From Thermophilibacter provencensis (GTDB lineage: Bacteria > Actinomycetota > Coriobacteriia > Coriobacteriales > Atopobiaceae): 64,000 nucleotides of DNA. This document shows positions 56,400 to 63,633 of the stretch, piece by piece (positions within the stretch are counted from its first letter, which is position 1; each line of letters begins with the position of its first letter). Made by a program: the position numbers and the translations under genes. The stretch spans positions 744,001 to 808,000 of the forward strand of contig NZ_LT671417.1 of the NCBI RefSeq assembly GCF_900128445.1, read 5' to 3'. The notes under the pieces are model-generated. The model did not search any database and was not told the origin of the DNA. It saw only the letters and a program-made list of their open reading frames with translations.

Positions 56400-58313
56400 C
56401 TATCGGGAGCGGCCGGTCGACCTCATGACGGCATGGCGGAATTCGTCAAAGCTCGTGGCTCGAGAAAGAAGGTCGGTTGCCTCTCCTTCCGAGAGAAGCC
56501 CGATCATCGCCTCATAGAGCGTCCGGAAGGCACCTTTATCAACGTCGCTGATGGCAAACAGGAGCACGAGCCTGACGGCCGCGCTGCCCCACGTTATCCC
56601 CTCTGTGCTCGTTGCAACTGAGATGCATGTCTTGTTTGCGCTCATTGAGGCGGCGTGTGGAATGGCAATGGCTCCAAATGCCGTGTTGCTGGCATGCTCG
56701 CGCTGAAGGACGTCCTTGTCAAAGAACTCGTCCACATATCCCAGCTCTTGCAGGCGGCTGCAGAGCAGCTTGATGATCTCCTCCCTCGACATACCCTCAA
56801 CCTGCGGGAAGAAGAGAGTCTCAGAAAAGTAGTCGTCGAAGCGCGCCTCGAGCGCCTGAAGCTCCTTATCCTGTCGAACGGAGAGGATGGCATCCGAGAT
56901 ATCAGGGAAGCCGCCCCTGGAGAAGGGCGGGATGTTCACCACGCGAGGGTGGGAGGCCTCGTTGACGGGAACGGTTGTGATGAGCAGGTCATATGCCACC
57001 CCTGTCAGCCCGTTCTCGTCTGGGACGCACGCCACGATGTCAAGCGTGGCGGAGTGCGCTAGTTCAAGTTGCTCAAGGAGCGCTCGTGCCATTCCGTGAT
57101 AGTCCGGGCACAGAAGAGCACCTTTGACCTTTGTGTCGTCCAAGCGCTGCCTTTCAAGTTCAGCGCCCACATGCAGGGCTACAAAGGCAATCTCGTCCTC
57201 GGAGAGGGTGAGGCCGTACTTGTTTGCTAACCTGATGGAGAGGCTGGTTCCGATGTCATAGGTGAGGGGGCACTCCTCGCGCACGGTTTTGGCGAGCGAG
57301 TTTCTCGCAAAGACTCCCTTTTGGTTGCGTTCGATTAGATTCTTGAGGTGCAGACAGAAAGGCATCAGGAAGCTCTGGGTTGCGAGGTTGACGTCGTACT
57401 GCTCGGAAATCGCTTCGGCAAGATCACGGGCATCTTGGACAAGCTCTTTTCCAACGATGCGCTCGAGCTGCGCATAGTCCGGGCTGGCAACGGCGTTCGT
57501 GTAGGCCATGAGGAGCATCTGAATGCCAAGGAGCTCGTCTAGGCCGAATTCGATTGAAAAGTCGCTCGAGAGCCGGCGACAGAGCTCTTCGGCAACGGGG
57601 TCCTTCTCGGCAAGGCGTTCGGGTGACTCAGAATCGTGCGGGAGCACGTCTCCGTTGCGCACGCGGTCAACGAGGATGAGCAGGTGCATGATGAGGTTGT
57701 TGCGTGATATTTCGTTGATGCGTCGGTTGCTGAGGCGCATCGTCTCGTCGAGGGCGTTCGTAACGGAGTCCACATCGAGTGCGGAATAGCTCTCCTTGAG
57801 GGCGGCTATACCGATTGCCCCCGTTCCGGCCTCTTCGAGGAGGCACTGTCCGATGAGGCGTCGCTTGCTCTTTTCCGGCCCCGCCATGCTCAGGCGATTG
57901 TTCTGGGTCTTGAAGGAGATTCCGAGCCGCTCGTAGGAGAGGTTCATCCTGCGAATGTCAGATCGAAGGGTGGAGAAGCTGACGTAGAGCTCCTCACAAA
58001 GGTCGAAGAGGTCGAGCGACTCCTCGTGGTCCACTATGAAGCGCTTGACAATGTAGCTTGACCTCTCGGAGGCGCTTTGGGGAACGGGCGAACCCTCCTG
58101 CTGGTCCAGCAGGGTGAGTGCGATCTTGCGGTTGAGGAGATAGCCGTCCTTGGACGAGAAGATGACAAGGTCTCCGGCGGACTCGTTTATCTGCTTGACA
58201 TACGACTTGATGCTTCTGGGGGAGCGTCCAATTTCCTTTGCGAGGTCGGTGGACCTGGTTGCCGAGTCATGGCGTAGGAGTGCCCTCAGGAGCTCCTCGT
58301 GTCCCTGCTTCAT
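56400..58313 (-). CDS. PRD-containing PTS regulator (BglG/MtlR type)
   Basis: A 637-residue activator controlled by PTS phosphorylation. ATG 58313 follows GGAGGAATACCC. Two HTH domains (1-60: LLRALLRHDSATRSTDLAKEIGRSPRSIKSYVKQIN; about 85-170), PRD1 and PRD2 (about 175-400, His in LIMHLLILVDRV and FVALHVGAELER), a GatB-like IIB domain (about 405-495) and a C-terminal IIA domain with the active His in FGAIAIPHAASMSANKT. It is divergent from the PTS-GH1 operon, which it almost certainly controls. Confidence 0.92.
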   Translation of the reverse strand: MKQGHEELLRALLRHDSATRSTDLAKEIGRSPRSIKSYVKQINESAGDLVIFSSKDGYLLNRKIALTLLDQQEGSPVPQSASERSSYIVKRFIVDHEESLDLFDLCEELYVSFSTLRSDIRRMNLSYERLGISFKTQNNRLSMAGPEKSKRRLIGQCLLEEAGTGAIGIAALKESYSALDVDSVTNALDETMRLSNRRINEISRNNLIMHLLILVDRVRNGDVLPHDSESPERLAEKDPVAEELCRRLSSDFSIEFGLDELLGIQMLLMAYTNAVASPDYAQLERIVGKELVQDARDLAEAISEQYDVNLATQSFLMPFCLHLKNLIERNQKGVFARNSLAKTVREECPLTYDIGTSLSIRLANKYGLTLSEDEIAFVALHVGAELERQRLDDTKVKGALLCPDYHGMARALLEQLELAHSATLDIVACVPDENGLTGVAYDLLITTVPVNEASHPRVVNIPPFSRGGFPDISDAILSVRQDKELQALEARFDDYFSETLFFPQVEGMSREEIIKLLCSRLQELGYVDEFFDKDVLQREHASNTAFGAIAIPHAASMSANKTCISVATSTEGITWGSAAVRLVLLFAISDVDKGAFRTLYEAMIGLLSEGEATDLLSRATSFDEFRHAVMRSTGRSR

Positions 58314-58551: not shown

Positions 58552-58881
58552 ATGTCCAAGGACCAGATCGGAATCTACCTGTGCTGCGGAGGGGGCCTCT
58601 CGTCTGGCTTTCTTGCGCAGCAGGGTCGCAAGGCCGCAAAGAAGCGTCAAATCAACGCACTCGTGGAGGCAAAGAGCGAGTCGGAGGTGACCCAGTATCT
58701 CCCGAAGATGGACGTGCTCTGCATTGGCCCCCACTACGCTTTCAGGCTCGACGCGTTTCGCAGGATGGCCGAGCCGTACAACGTTCCCGTGGTGGTGATT
58801 CCCGAGGATACCTACTCCATGCTCGATGGCAATGCCCTCATTGACCTTGCCCTGAGCACCATCGAGAAGAATGTGGGTTAG
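58552..58881 (+). CDS. PTS lactose/cellobiose-family IIB component
   Basis: A 109-residue phosphocarrier: QIGIYLCCGGGLSSGFLAQQGRKAAKK carries the phosphorylated Cys, and VLCIGPHYAFRLDAFRRMAEPYNVPVVVIP matches the IIB-lac/cel fold. ATG 58552 follows GGGAG. First gene of the operon IIB-IIC-IIA-GH1. Confidence 0.88.
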   Translation: MSKDQIGIYLCCGGGLSSGFLAQQGRKAAKKRQINALVEAKSESEVTQYLPKMDVLCIGPHYAFRLDAFRRMAEPYNVPVVVIPEDTYSMLDGNALIDLALSTIEKNVG

Positions 58882-58929: not shown

Positions 58930-60234
58930 ATGGATAAAGTGATGAGCTGGTTTACCGATAGCCTGGCCCCCGGAATGCAGAGGGTGTTTGGTAATCCTTG
59001 GGTCTCCGCGGTGGCCTCTGCCATGCAGAAGATTCTCCCTTTCATCCTCGTGGGTTCGGTCGTCTCGATCTATAACGTCTTCGTCAGGTACATTCCCTCG
59101 CTTCCCGACCTCAGCTTCGTCAACACGTTCTCGTTTGGAATGATGTCGCTGATCGTTGCGTTCATGGTTCCGTACTTTGGCATGACCGAGCTTGATCACC
59201 CCAAGTACGAGGTGACCGCGGGCCTTACGTCAGTTACCGTCTTCCTCATGGCTCTGTGTCCCACGGTTGCCTCGCTTGCCAAGAACGCCGAAAGCGGGCT
59301 TACCGAGTACCTCGTGACGGACATCAACTACCTTGGCGGATCGGGGCTGTTCGTGGCCATCGTCATGGCGCTTCTCGTCATGCTCATCTTCCACCTCTAC
59401 TCGAAGTTGCACGTGCTCGAGGGGTCTGACGCGGTTCCCGACTTCGTCATCGAGTGGATTAACAACATCATCCCGATGACCTTTATCTACCTGCTGGTGG
59501 GTGCTGCCGTGTTTGTCCTTAGCGTCGATATCGTTGGCATCATCGATGTGATTTTCCAGCCGCTTAACGCAATCGGCCAGTCTCTGCCGGGTTTCCTCAT
59601 CATTAACTTCCTCTACGTTCTCCTCTATTCTGTGGGCGTTTCCGCTTGGTCGCTTAACGCCATCGTCAAGCCCATCCTCGTCGCCGGTATCTCTGCAAAC
59701 GCTGCGGCGGTTGCCGCGGGCGGCGCGCCCCTCTACATTGTGACCACCGAGACCATCTTCACCACGGCGCTTATCGCCATGGGTGGCCTGGGAGGCACGC
59801 TTCCCCTCAACGTGCTCATGTTCCGCTGCAAGTCGAAGAAGCTGCGCACCATGGGCAAGATCTGCATCGGCCCGTCCATCTTCAACATCAACGAGCCTCT
59901 GGTTTACGGTGCTCCAATCGTGTTCAACCCGCTGCTCATGATCCCCATGTGGATCAACTCCATCGTTGGCCCCCTCATCGTCTGGTTTGCCATGAGCTTT
60001 GGGATGCTCAACATTCCCGCGGGCGTCAACAACGTGTCCCGCATTCCCGCGCCCATCTGCACTTGGCTGACGACCGACGACTGGCGTGCCTTCATCTGGT
60101 TTGCTGTGCTGTTTGTGGTGTACCTGCTCATCTGGCTGCCCTTCGTCAAGAAGTACGACGCCCAGCTTGTTGAGCAGGAGGCCAAGCGAGAGGCGGAGCA
60201 GACGGCAGCGGAGGCCTCGCCGGCAACCGTGTAG
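58930..60234 (+). CDS. PTS cellobiose/lactose-family IIC permease
   Basis: A 434-residue membrane permease with about ten helices. It starts DKVMSWFTDSLAPGMQRVFGNPWVSAVASAMQKILPFILVGSVVSIYNVF; GKICIGPSIFNINEPLVYGAPIVFNPLLMIPMWINSIVGPLI is the conserved IIC-cel substrate region. It imports and phosphorylates a disaccharide or glycoside with the neighbouring IIB and IIA. Confidence 0.94.
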   Translation: MDKVMSWFTDSLAPGMQRVFGNPWVSAVASAMQKILPFILVGSVVSIYNVFVRYIPSLPDLSFVNTFSFGMMSLIVAFMVPYFGMTELDHPKYEVTAGLTSVTVFLMALCPTVASLAKNAESGLTEYLVTDINYLGGSGLFVAIVMALLVMLIFHLYSKLHVLEGSDAVPDFVIEWINNIIPMTFIYLLVGAAVFVLSVDIVGIIDVIFQPLNAIGQSLPGFLIINFLYVLLYSVGVSAWSLNAIVKPILVAGISANAAAVAAGGAPLYIVTTETIFTTALIAMGGLGGTLPLNVLMFRCKSKKLRTMGKICIGPSIFNINEPLVYGAPIVFNPLLMIPMWINSIVGPLIVWFAMSFGMLNIPAGVNNVSRIPAPICTWLTTDDWRAFIWFAVLFVVYLLIWLPFVKKYDAQLVEQEAKREAEQTAAEASPATV

Positions 60235-60269: not shown

Positions 60270-60596
60270 ATGGATGAGATGAACCCGCTTGTTCCTGTTG
60301 CAATGCAGATTATCGTCCATGCGGGAGAGGCTCGCACCCGAGCGAACGAGGCGCTTGACGCGCTTTCCGAGAAGGACTTTGAGACTGCAAAGGCAAAGAT
60401 GGAAGAGGCGCATCGAGAGATAACCCTCGCCCACCAGTCGCAGACGGAGGTCATTCAGCGAGAGGCGGCTGGAGAGAAGATCGACGGCGGTGTGCTCTTC
60501 TCGCACGCACAGGACACACTGATGACCGTTATGTCCGAGGTGAACTTGTCCGACCGTCTAGTTCAGCTGTTCGAGGCGTTCTTCGGCCAGGTCTAG
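60270..60596 (+). CDS. PTS lactose/cellobiose-family IIA component
   Basis: A 108-residue all-helical phosphocarrier: MQIIVHAGEARTRANEALDAL, KAKMEEAHREITLAHQSQTEVIQREA, and the phosphorylated His79 in GGVLFSHAQDTLMTV. It completes the PTS. Confidence 0.93.
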   Translation: MDEMNPLVPVAMQIIVHAGEARTRANEALDALSEKDFETAKAKMEEAHREITLAHQSQTEVIQREAAGEKIDGGVLFSHAQDTLMTVMSEVNLSDRLVQLFEAFFGQV

Positions 60597-60679: not shown

Positions 60680-62134
60680 ATGGCGAATCTGCTCGACATC
60701 GAGAAGAGCCGTGCGCACGACGGCTTCCCCGAGGGCTTTCTTTGGGGAGCGGCGGTAAGCGCTAAGCAGGCGGAGGGGCAAGAGGGTAGAGGCCTTACTG
60801 TTGCCGATTTGCAGAACTTTGACCCCAACGACAAGACGAAGGTTAAGGGTGACTACTCCGCCCAAGAGATTGCCGATCGACTCGAGCATCCCGAGAAGTA
60901 CTGGTTCCCCAAGAAGATGGGAATCGAGTTCTACCGGAGGTACCCCGAGGACATTGAGCTTCTGAGCGGTATGGGGCTGCGCTGTTTCAGGTTCTCGATA
61001 GCGTGGAGCCGCATCTTCCCCAACGGAGATGACGGGATGCCGAGCGAGGAGGGGCTGGCATACTACGATGCCCTGCTCGACTGCCTCGAGGCGCATGGCA
61101 TGGTGCCGATAGTCACTCTGTACCACGACGACATGCCCGTTTCGCTTGCGACCAAGTACAACGGATTCCTCTCGAAGCACGTGCGCGAGGCCTATGTTCG
61201 CTATGCGGAAACCGTGATGCGGCGCTATGCTGGCAGGATTCGCTACTGGATCCCTGTCAACCAAATCAACCTGACAAGGGTCGGGCTGTCCTCGCTTGGC
61301 ATCGTGCGAGATACCGTGGATGACCTTGACGCAAAGAAGCTGCAGGCGGTTCACAACAAGTTCGTTGTCTGCGCGCGCGTTGCGAGCCTGGGACACAAGA
61401 TCGACCCCGAGGCTAAGTTTGGCGCGATGCTTGCCGACTTCCTGGTCAACCCGATGACCTGCAAGCCGGAGGACGTTATCTTGTCGACGCAGAAGAACCA
61501 GATGACCATGTACTTCTACGCGGACGTTCAGCTTCGGGGCCGCTATCCGGGATATGCCCTGCGATCTTTCGCCGATAATGGGGTGAAGATTGAGGTTGAG
61601 TCCGGTGAGCTCGAGCTCATAGCCAACAATACGATGGATTTTCTCGCCATCAGCTACTACAACTCAAATGTGGTCTCCGCCGAAAAGAACTCCATGGCAA
61701 TCGGTGATTCCGTCGTCAATCCGTACCTCGAGGCGAATCCTTGGGGATGGACCGTCAACCCCACGGGACTTCTCGACGGGTTCCTGAGGTACTGGGACCG
61801 TTACGGCGTTCCCCTCATGATTGCTGAGAACGGGTTTGGCCAGGTGGAGGAGCTGGGATCTGACAATACCGTGCATGATGACTATCGCATCGCTTACCTC
61901 AGGGAGCACATAGCGGCGATTGGGGAGGCCATCAGGCAGGGAGTGGACGTCTTTGCCTATTGCGCGTGGTCTCCCATCGACATGGTTTCTTCGGGGACGA
62001 GTGAGATGCGCAAGCGCTATGGGCTGATTTACAACGACCAAGACGACTTTGGCAACGGTACGCACACGCGCTATCCCAAGGACTCCTACCGCTGGTACAA
62101 GCAGGTTATCGAGACTAACGGTCGCGAGCTTTAG
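60680..62134 (+). CDS. GH1 6-phospho-glycosidase with Gln at the acid/base position
   Basis: A 484-residue GH1 enzyme expected to hydrolyse the phosphorylated glycoside delivered by the PTS. ATG 60680 (GAGGAGAAC upstream). FLWGAAVSAKQAEG, RCFRFSIAWSRIFPNGDDG and the nucleophile Glu383 in VPLMIAENGFGQVE are normal. The acid/base motif, usually T-x-N-E-P/I, reads WIPVNQINLTRV with Gln195. The loop after strand 3 is LYHDDMPVSL in place of the usual T-H-W/F-D-L/E-P. Gln at this position is the mark of plant myrosinases, which cut thioglucosides. It could be an S-glycosidase or an enzyme for activated aglycones. Confidence 0.92.
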   Translation: MANLLDIEKSRAHDGFPEGFLWGAAVSAKQAEGQEGRGLTVADLQNFDPNDKTKVKGDYSAQEIADRLEHPEKYWFPKKMGIEFYRRYPEDIELLSGMGLRCFRFSIAWSRIFPNGDDGMPSEEGLAYYDALLDCLEAHGMVPIVTLYHDDMPVSLATKYNGFLSKHVREAYVRYAETVMRRYAGRIRYWIPVNQINLTRVGLSSLGIVRDTVDDLDAKKLQAVHNKFVVCARVASLGHKIDPEAKFGAMLADFLVNPMTCKPEDVILSTQKNQMTMYFYADVQLRGRYPGYALRSFADNGVKIEVESGELELIANNTMDFLAISYYNSNVVSAEKNSMAIGDSVVNPYLEANPWGWTVNPTGLLDGFLRYWDRYGVPLMIAENGFGQVEELGSDNTVHDDYRIAYLREHIAAIGEAIRQGVDVFAYCAWSPIDMVSSGTSEMRKRYGLIYNDQDDFGNGTHTRYPKDSYRWYKQVIETNGREL

Positions 62135-62454: not shown

Positions 62455-63633
62455 ATGGCCGAGGACGCCAAGCAGTACGCGTTGGACAAGCACGAGGAGT
62501 GGGGCGGCAAGATCGAGGTGATCAGCCGTGCGCCAATCACCACGCCCGAGGAGCTGGCCGTGGCCTACACGCCGGGCGTCGCCGAGCCGTGCCTCAAGAT
62601 CCGCGACAACGTGGAGGACTCCTACAAGTACACGCGCCGCGGCAACCTGGTGGCCGTGGTTACGGACGGCAGCGCGGTGCTGGGCCTGGGCAACATCGGC
62701 CCCGAGGCGGGCATGCCGGTCATGGAGGGCAAGTGCGCCCTGTTCAAGACTTTTGCGGACGTGGACGCCTTCCCTCTGTGCATCCGCTCCAACGACGTGG
62801 ACGAGATCGTGCGCACCGTGGAGCTGCTGGCCGGCAGCTTTGGCGGCGTCAACCTCGAGGACATCTCCGCGCCGCGCTGCTTTGAGATCGAGCGCCGCCT
62901 CAAGGAGTCCTGCGACATCCCCGTCTTCCACGACGACCAGCACGGCACCGCCGTCGTGACCTGCGCCGCGCTCATCAACGCGTGCCGCCTCACCGGGCGC
63001 GAGCTCGCCGACGTACGCGTGGTCTTCTCCGGCGCGGGCGCCGCGGGCATCTCCATCGCCAAGCTCATGCAGCGCATGGGCGTGCGCGACGTCATCATCT
63101 GCGACCGCACGGGTGCCATCTACGAGGGTCGCGAGGGCCTCAACCCCGAGAAGGCCGAGATCGCCACGTGGACCAACCGCGAGGGCGTGAAGGGCACCCT
63201 GGCCGACGCCGTGGCCGGCGCCGACGTCTTTGTGGGTGTGTCCGCGCCGGGCGTGCTCACGCAGGACATGGTGCGCACGATGGCCGCCGACCCGATCATC
63301 TTTGCCTGCGCCAACCCCGTGCCGGAGATCATGCCGGACGAGGCGCTGGCCGCCGGCGCCGCCGTGGCCGCCACGGGCCGCTCCGACTTCCCCAACCAGA
63401 TCAACAACGTGCTGGCCTTCCCGGGCATCTTCCGCGGTGCCCTGGACGTGCACGCCTCCGACATCAACGACGAGATGATGGAGGCCGCCGCCTACGCCAT
63501 CGCCGGCCTGGTTGACGACGAGCACCGCTGCGCCGAGTACATCATCCCGGGCGCCTTTGACGAGCGCGTGGCGCCGGCCGTGGCCGCCGCCGTGGCCGAT
63601 GCCGCCCGCAAGTCCGGAGTCGCCCGCCTCTAG
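62455..63633 (+). CDS. NAD(P)-dependent malic enzyme
   Basis: A 392-residue short-form malic enzyme that decarboxylates malate to pyruvate. LAVAYTPGVAEPCLKI, TDGSAVLGLGNIGPEAGMPVMEGK, the metal site CDIPVFHDDQHGTAVV, and the cofactor motif VVFSGAGAAGISIAKLM are all present. It ends in VAPAVAAAVADAARKSGVARL. A REP-like inverted repeat and a strong terminator follow. Confidence 0.96.
   Translation: MAEDAKQYALDKHEEWGGKIEVISRAPITTPEELAVAYTPGVAEPCLKIRDNVEDSYKYTRRGNLVAVVTDGSAVLGLGNIGPEAGMPVMEGKCALFKTFADVDAFPLCIRSNDVDEIVRTVELLAGSFGGVNLEDISAPRCFEIERRLKESCDIPVFHDDQHGTAVVTCAALINACRLTGRELADVRVVFSGAGAAGISIAKLMQRMGVRDVIICDRTGAIYEGREGLNPEKAEIATWTNREGVKGTLADAVAGADVFVGVSAPGVLTQDMVRTMAADPIIFACANPVPEIMPDEALAAGAAVAATGRSDFPNQINNVLAFPGIFRGALDVHASDINDEMMEAAAYAIAGLVDDEHRCAEYIIPGAFDERVAPAVAAAVADAARKSGVARL

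Follow-up and report, generated by a model that had tools for sequence, protein, structure and literature searches.

A clade of bacterial GH1 proteins, mostly of PTS operons, with glutamine at the acid/base position

Described GH1 enzymes with glutamate or glutamine at the acid/base site

The closest described relatives of the protein considered here are the GH1 6-phospho-beta-glucosidases, among them 6wgd of Bacillus licheniformis, BglA (2xhy) and AscB of Escherichia coli and BglA-2 (4ipl) of Streptococcus pneumoniae. They have in common with it the nucleophile, the Asn that stands before the acid/base residue and the loop (Ser437 with Lys445-Arg-Tyr447, a Ser...Lys-x-Tyr pattern) that we take to bind the 6-phosphate. 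The protein is encoded in the window, the 64,000-nucleotide stretch of the Thermophilibacter provencensis genome analysed here (NZ_LT671417.1, positions 744,001 to 808,000), and belongs to a bacterial clade set apart from those enzymes by Gln in place of the acid/base Glu, by Ile191 and Leu206, and by a loop Glu or Asp253 (residues are numbered as in the window protein).

Natural Gln at this site is also found in plants. The QE-type myrosinase of Sinapis alba (1myr) has the same Gln-Glu pair within GH1 and an aliphatic residue two places before the Gln (Ile in 1myr; position 193 is Val or Ile in 34 of our 43 Gln-type rows, and Phe in 6 of them and in 72 of 73 Glu-type rows). The bacterial clade differs from it in its place among the 6-phospho-beta-glucosidases, in its phosphate loop and, by residue count, in having acidic residues rather than Arg at aglycone-side sites. 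A like change has been engineered in 6-phospho-glycosidases, going by the titles of Gan1D-E170Q and other laboratory Glu-to-Gln mutants (5ok7, 4zfm), E170 being presumably the acid/base residue of Gan1D; in the Gln clade the change is natural and fixed rather than laboratory-made. Passages of PMC1781453 report Gln at the acid/base site of rice Os4bglu14 and Os9bglu33 and tell of no thioglucosidase role for them; these are two plant genes, as against a clade spread across bacterial phyla in PTS operons.

A likeness in pathway is offered by the PttS/PbgS route for sinigrin in Companilactobacillus farciminis, where, according to excerpts of PMC8660893, PTS uptake is coupled with GH1 hydrolysis of the phosphorylated glycoside. 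PbgS differs from the Gln clade in being kin to BglA and AscB (48% and 50% identity, respectively, in the same excerpts), both of which have Glu at the acid/base site. No paper on Gln at the acid/base site of bacterial 6-phospho-glucosidases was found by title or abstract opening among open-licence articles in PMC, a search that is no proof of absence.

The window operon and residue 195

The GH1 gene is the last of a compact operon in the order IIB-IIC-IIA-GH1, from which a PRD/EII-domain regulator diverges (Table 1). The Met starts given for EIIB and for the regulator, whose open reading frame begins at 58559, are our choices. A first-pass annotation of this DNA had placed the GH1 gene in a PTS operon and expected a 6-phospho-glycoside as substrate. 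Lac-family EIIA, EIIB and EIIC do stand together, each with an NCBIfam score below the curated cut-off, and a 6-phospho-glycoside is indeed the substrate to be expected from a PTS operon combined with a kept 6-phosphate loop. Immediately downstream of the operon lies a gene for a malic enzyme (62455-63633, PRK12861-like, below cut-off).

Table 1. Genes of the window operon and residues of its GH1 protein
Feature	Position in window	Strand	Basis
Divergent PRD/EIIA-domain regulator (MafR-like)	56400..58313	-	NF053736 9.3e-20, TIGR00848 1.7e-14, both below cut-offs
PTS EIIB, Lac family	58552..58881	+	TIGR00853 2.8e-18 (frame from 58531), below cut-off
PTS EIIC, Lac/cellobiose family	58930..60234	+	TIGR00410/TIGR00359 2.8e-52, below curated cut-offs
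PTS EIIA, Lac family	60270..60596	+	TIGR00823 8.5e-27, below curated cut-off
GH1 protein, 6-phospho-beta-glucosidase-like, Gln at acid/base site	60680..62134	+	ATG at 60680, 484 aa, stop ends 62134
Asp150-Asp151, YHDDMP loop (usual: Tyr/Phe, then Glu/Asp)	61127..61132	+	Alignment rows
Asn194	61259-61261	+	Read from sequence/translation
Gln195 (CAA), replacing acid/base Glu	61262..61264	+	Translation, phmmer, clade tree
Asp253, beta5 C-terminal end, candidate substitute carboxylate	61436..61438	+	Alignment rows; modelled strand 246-253
Glu383 (GAG), nucleophile	61826..61828	+	Glu in 116/116 aligned rows
Presumed 6-phosphate-binding loop, Ser437 to Tyr447	61988..62020	+	Ser437, Lys445, Tyr447 in 116/116 rows

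Residue 195 lies in the context W-I-P-V-N-Q-I-N. A phmmer search against the PDB gave 193 matches at E 0.001 or better, and in the best three, whose alignments were examined (6wgd, 4ipl and 3qom), Gln195 pairs with Glu within an N-E-I-N or N-E-V-N motif. The earlier reading of Gln at the acid/base site is thereby upheld. The nucleophile, in the motif Glu383-Asn-Gly, is intact, as that reading also had it. An AlphaFold2 model of the protein (pLDDT 94.5) has the (beta/alpha)8 fold of GH1 and finds its best structural match in the PDB in 6wgd (Z 55.9, with an rmsd of 1.4 across 451 residues). A solved structure of the clade was sought with the Gln-type protein of locus L038 (Clostridium simiarum) as query. 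The seven PDB sequences that it matches at an E value of 1e-100 or lower are all shared with the window query, and the one alignment examined, that to the top match, shows Glu at the acid/base site.

Against NCBIfam models PRK09852, PRK09593, PRK09589 and PRK15014 the window protein scores below the curated cut-offs (best 430.5 bits against 623), and so does L038 (533.9 against 623). Such a shortfall is not peculiar to the Gln clade, because the Glu-type GH1 protein encoded beside a Gln-type one in locus L114 falls short as well (558.5 against 639). By its fold and ancestry the protein remains a member of GH1, but the family's usual mechanism cannot be assumed where residue 195 is Gln.

The YHDDMP segment (residues 148-153), which had also been flagged as unusual, is so: Asp150 is confined to three proteins, that of the window and its two closest relatives (L005, 62%; L144, 65%), that is, to 3/43 Gln-type and 0/73 Glu-type rows, with Tyr in the other 40 of the 43. 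On that count Asp150 was rejected as a clade-wide substitute acid. Glu356, which makes W-E-W of W-G-W at residues 355-357, is likewise found in 3/43 Gln-type rows (L036, L039 and L040), and one Glu-type row (L070) has W-D-W there. Neither residue is general, since each occurs in three Gln-type rows, and in different ones.

The search found three further GH1 genes in the window genome (2.63 Mb). L002, a 44% relative, has N-E-M-N; L003 (G000:C3:2456866) and L004 (G000:C3:1309098) are of the N-E-P type and very similar to each other.

The Gln clade and its operons

The first sample comprised 113 loci, 33 from 140 genomes of the family and 80 from a contig scan, these being the top-ranked of at least 577. 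Its 128 GH1 matches have Gln (43) or Glu (85) at the acid/base site, a ratio that is no prevalence, since the scan pattern favoured Gln and only the top-ranked loci were kept. The pattern contained N-Q, and it may have passed over Gln-type rows set in a different sequence context. In a first tree of 123 proteins a single branch (SH-aLRT 99) separated the 41 Gln-type rows from all others. The final tree, from which 20 rows had been dropped (16 near-copies or the like and four far outgroup rows) and to which 13 had been added, holds 116 rows, 43 Gln-type and 73 Glu-type; the window protein stands in it for its copy L001, and window residues 186-212, the acid/base region, were left out of its construction. 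The Gln-type rows again form one clade (SH-aLRT 99), and the Gln/Glu label needs one change on the tree, as against a mean of 34.9 on shuffling, with 0/500 shuffles as low. Both GH1 trees are quick ones without bootstrap, made of bacterial rows with no plant protein included.

On these trees Gln arose once, and it is fixed in the clade. The first-pass annotation had suggested looking for other GH1 proteins with N-Q, and 43 such rows in a single clade are what that search returned. Because they form one clade, Gln195 is not an error: sequencing error or a lone mutation was rejected as an explanation, Gln being common to the whole clade, and from the sequences the protein looks like a real variant enzyme. 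One Gln-type GH1 gene (G126:C136:210-1646) has one internal TGA stop.

The clade reaches across Bacillota (Clostridium, Enterococcus, Vagococcus, Lacrimispora, Holdemania, Gemmiger and an operon of Listeria monocytogenes), Actinomycetota (Atopobiaceae, Propionibacteriaceae, Demequina), Pseudomonadota (Escherichia sp. ESNIH1, Tatumella, a plasmid of Enterobacter ludwigii) and Synergistota. By their record titles, several of the Actinomycetota and Bacillota records come from animal guts. A DNA pattern for the motif matched 23 of 396 genomes of the class (reversed control, 0); three of its 26 loci (L130, L133 and L148) have no GH1 match, which leaves 20 genomes. The distribution is patchy, with the Gln motif in 2 of 26 genomes of the window's own genus. 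A search of 5426 complete Escherichia coli genomes for the L063 gene, at blastn sensitivity, found no match that covers 80% of it, its 10 listed rows being bglA.

The Listeria monocytogenes record has the order IIB-IIC-IIA-GH1-PRD with N-Q-I-N, an operon that, judging by gene order, we take to be lmo0914-lmo0918, with lmo0915 as its EIIC gene. In passages from the literature, lmo0915 is up-regulated in mouse infection (PMC2679221), and lmo0917 is up in soil extract and annotated as 'similar to beta-glucosidase' (PMC3179493). The PTS is named lactose- or cellobiose-specific, and the passages, from PMC2679221 among other sources, tell of no assay. In the records of loci L121 to L123 the Gln-type proteins bear the label 'glycoside hydrolase family 1 protein'; such generic labels stand although the mechanism-defining residue is gone. 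The L121 record itself (NZ_LR134399.1) is a 394 kb L. monocytogenes 'plasmid' with seemingly core chromosomal genes (coaA and vga(G) near the PTS operon), and may be a misassembled piece of the chromosome.

The survey of neighbourhoods covered 43 wide loci with 46 Gln-type genes, some of the stretches ending near the gene. Lac-family IIB, IIC and IIA genes occur together in 27 loci and IIC and/or IIA in four more (31 Lac-type loci in total); four have EIIBC, and in the other eight the stretch searched contains no PTS gene. In a tree of 32 EIIC rows, 17 of the 20 Gln-linked proteins stand on one branch with 1 of the 12 Glu-linked ones, and the Gln/Glu label needs three changes (shuffled mean 9.9). 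Transporter and Gln-type enzyme have largely travelled together, a shared history that speaks for a shared substrate. That there is one common phospho-substrate is not sure, because 8/43 loci have no PTS gene in reach and 3/20 Gln-linked EIICs (L066, L083 and L084) lie outside the main branch; these three, and the EIIBC loci, do not fit the shared-substrate view. An HPr gene is found in or beside the operon in 11/43 loci and Enzyme I in 4/43. Gln-type loci L042, L045, L052 and L055 have an Enzyme I and HPr of their own, as if the PTS were self-contained.

Tandem Gln-type genes are present at L039 (6547-9434), L153 (8717-11595) and L154 (8281-11323), and the upstream copies of the latter two have a divergent loop (NQINSLGGWGEF) and are the earliest-branching rows of the Gln clade, whose remaining members group with support 86. 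At L114 (8566-11943), in genome G052, the source of one of the window gene's two closest relatives, a Glu-type GH1, HPr and a Gln-type GH1 follow one another behind one Lac-type PTS; because both enzymes stand behind the same PTS, they probably have different jobs. Side genes in single or few loci encode methyltransferases, diaminopimelate dehydrogenase, hydrogenase, AI-2E and EamA transporters and a SLAC1 channel, and gave no hint of the substrate among the part of the neighbours annotated. Two further observations concern individual neighbourhoods. A protein of 205-217 aa with a weak diclust_near_Sec match, far below cut-off, is encoded beside the Gln-type gene at L036 (9449-10102) and L071 (918-1535), and the Gln-type operon of L122 (Enterococcus gilvus pCR1A) is close to lacBCD of the tagatose pathway.

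Catalysis with Gln at position 195

The rest of the active site is kept. Gln30, His149, Asn194, Trp355, Trp357, Glu383, Trp430, Ser437, Lys445 and Tyr447 are identical in 43/43 Gln-type and 73/73 Glu-type rows, bar one gap at Gln30 (72/73). With the nucleophile and the listed sugar-site residues identical in all 43 rows there is no sign of decay in the clade, and its pocket for 6-phosphoglucose seems unchanged. Residues that distinguish the Gln-type rows include Ile191 (43/43, against 10/73 Glu-type rows) and Leu206 (41/43, against 8/73). Seven places after the Gln (+7), in the beta4-alpha4 loop, 34/43 Gln-type rows have Glu, as against Glu in 0/73 and Asp in 1/73 Glu-type rows; position 253 is Asp in 14/43 and is Asp or Glu in 0/73. 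Taken together, an Asp or Glu at +5 to +9 or at 253 is present in 43/43 Gln-type rows (29 in the loop only, 7 with Asp253 only, 7 with both), whereas 67/73 Glu-type rows have neither and 6/73 have Asp or Glu at +5 to +9.

The first-pass annotation had named another Glu at the acid/base site as a case against its reading. At the site itself phmmer places Gln195, yet that case may hold, a displaced Asp or Glu being present in every Gln-type row. A control over column pairs used seven residue classes and columns in which a class occurs in at least 5 Gln-type rows and at most 10% of Glu-type rows; the acidic pair (columns 201 and 253) was the only one to cover all 43 Gln-type rows, pairs with 195 aside, a result to be read with the facts that the pattern was found by looking, that the control was made afterwards and that the rows share ancestry. 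In the window protein the carboxylate is Asp253, with Gly at +7 and Arg at +5. All seven rows that lack a loop carboxylate fall in one group of nine, so that few independent events are involved. All nine members have Asp253, and in two of them, Listeria and L147, the loop Glu is still present beside it. Such an order, which rests on few events, would be consistent with one carboxylate taking over from another.

The reading that we tentatively prefer, and that we hold to fall a little short of probable, is that the window protein is an active retaining GH1 enzyme on a 6-phospho-beta-glucoside from its own PTS, with the acid/base work shifted to another carboxylate and a leaving group that needs little protonation. 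The PTS of the operon would supply the 6-phospho-beta-glucoside, and Glu383, from knowledge of the family, would attack it to give a 6-phosphoglucosyl-enzyme; the aglycone would then leave and the intermediate be resolved without Glu at 195. Part or all of the acid/base work would fall to an aglycone-side carboxylate (Asp253 in the window protein, mostly Glu at +7 in the rest of the clade), assisted by a phenolic, acyl or thio leaving group that needs little protonation. We infer the activity and the substrate class from sequence, and likewise that the new carboxylates could reach the glycosidic bond; Asp253 and the loop Glu may instead simply bind the aglycone. More specifically, the catalytic acid/base could have moved, with Glu changed to Gln once, a loop Glu taking over, and that Glu lost in the window branch after Asp253 appeared, a course of events that we regard as doubtful.

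It is also rather unlikely that the enzyme is a hydrolase that does without an acid/base, with a very good leaving group (phenol, acyl or heteroaryl), water or a cellular anion to resolve the intermediate, and carboxylates that only shape the aglycone pocket. Gln cannot protonate, the operon is otherwise that of 6-phospho-beta-glucosidases, and the QE-type plant myrosinase is a natural case (passages of PMC6691170; Gln187 stands in the sequence of 1myr); but such an enzyme does not predict one acidic pair over 43/43 Gln-type rows, with Glu at +7 and Asp or Glu at 253 in 0/73 Glu-type rows. A transferase or phosphorylase, in which the neutral Gln allows the 6-phosphoglucosyl group to pass to inorganic phosphate or some other acceptor, with beta-glucose 1,6-bisphosphate as one possible product, appears improbable. 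Anions rescue retaining enzymes in which this Glu has been mutated to Gln, and the sugar in the present enzyme is itself anionic. In 6/43 loci (L035, L051, L052, L055, L062 and L072) the Gln-type gene has a HAD-type phosphatase gene nearby, but for the HAD proteins of L051, L052 and L062 the models matched are Cof-type or other phosphatases, and the matches listed include no beta-phosphoglucomutase; an enzyme of that kind beside the Gln-type gene would favour a phosphorylase, and for the three proteins tested it was set aside. That the protein is catalytically dead and retained in a sensory or regulatory role for the PTS is highly improbable. The acid/base residue has been lost in a fold with many paralogues, and G052 has Gln and Glu copies in one operon, but the kept nucleophile and sugar-binding residues speak against it, as does the absence of any other GH1 nearby in 37/43 loci (another is present in six).

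Thioglucoside hydrolysis as in myrosinase, and with it a bacterial route for glucosinolates, had been raised by the first-pass annotation. The likeness of the catalytic Gln/Glu pair holds good: 1myr reads ..INQLYSVPTRGY.. with Gln187, followed by R194 seven places on and T258-R259 after beta5. The thioglucoside role fares less well, and a bacterial counterpart of the QE-type myrosinase, acting as a 6-phospho-beta-thioglucosidase on PTS-imported glucosinolates, has little likelihood. Arg194 and Arg259 of myrosinase serve its sulfate/ascorbate site. By residue count, with differing loop lengths and without superposition, the loop Glu falls at R194 and Asp253 at Thr258 (and at the second Asn of V-F-N-N-G in the Thermotoga enzyme, presumably Asn223 in the usual numbering); by the same count 34/43 Gln-type rows have Glu at the Arg194 place, 14 have Asp just before the Arg259 place and 6 have Asp at it. 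Carboxylates at or next to the places of the myrosinase Arg residues, as this count gives them for most of the clade, would be of the wrong charge for a sulfated aglycone. In the window protein the count, over loops of differing length, puts Gly (+7) and Phe254 at the two Arg places; Arg stands at +5, where Thr-Arg follows soon after the Gln in this protein and two relatives (NQINLTRVG or NQPNLTRIS, compared with NQLYSVPTRG), so that an anionic aglycone is possible for those three.

The sinigrin route of Companilactobacillus farciminis lends the thioglucoside reading a PTS precedent. Passages of PMC8660893, however, name BglA and AscB as the glucosinolate enzymes of E. coli O157:H7, and AscB (K-12) and BglA (PCN033) have Glu in N-E-I-N; the EE-type plant myrosinases PEN2 and PYK10 likewise have Glu at the acid/base site (PMC6691170). 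Gln is therefore not needed for thioglucoside cleavage, and, since rice Os4bglu14 and Os9bglu33 carry it, it is no proof of a thioglucosidase. Among the part of the neighbours annotated, no sulfur-related gene stood out. For the window enzyme the glucosinolate reading is possible but weak.

Knowledge of what the enzymes of the Gln clade cleave would allow many annotations to be corrected. It would also provide a natural system in which to ask how a glycosidase can function when its acid/base is missing and whether catalytic carboxylates can migrate. If the acid/base did move as outlined above, the clade would present the relocation of a catalytic residue at two successive places in a well-studied hydrolase family, tied to a dedicated PTS.
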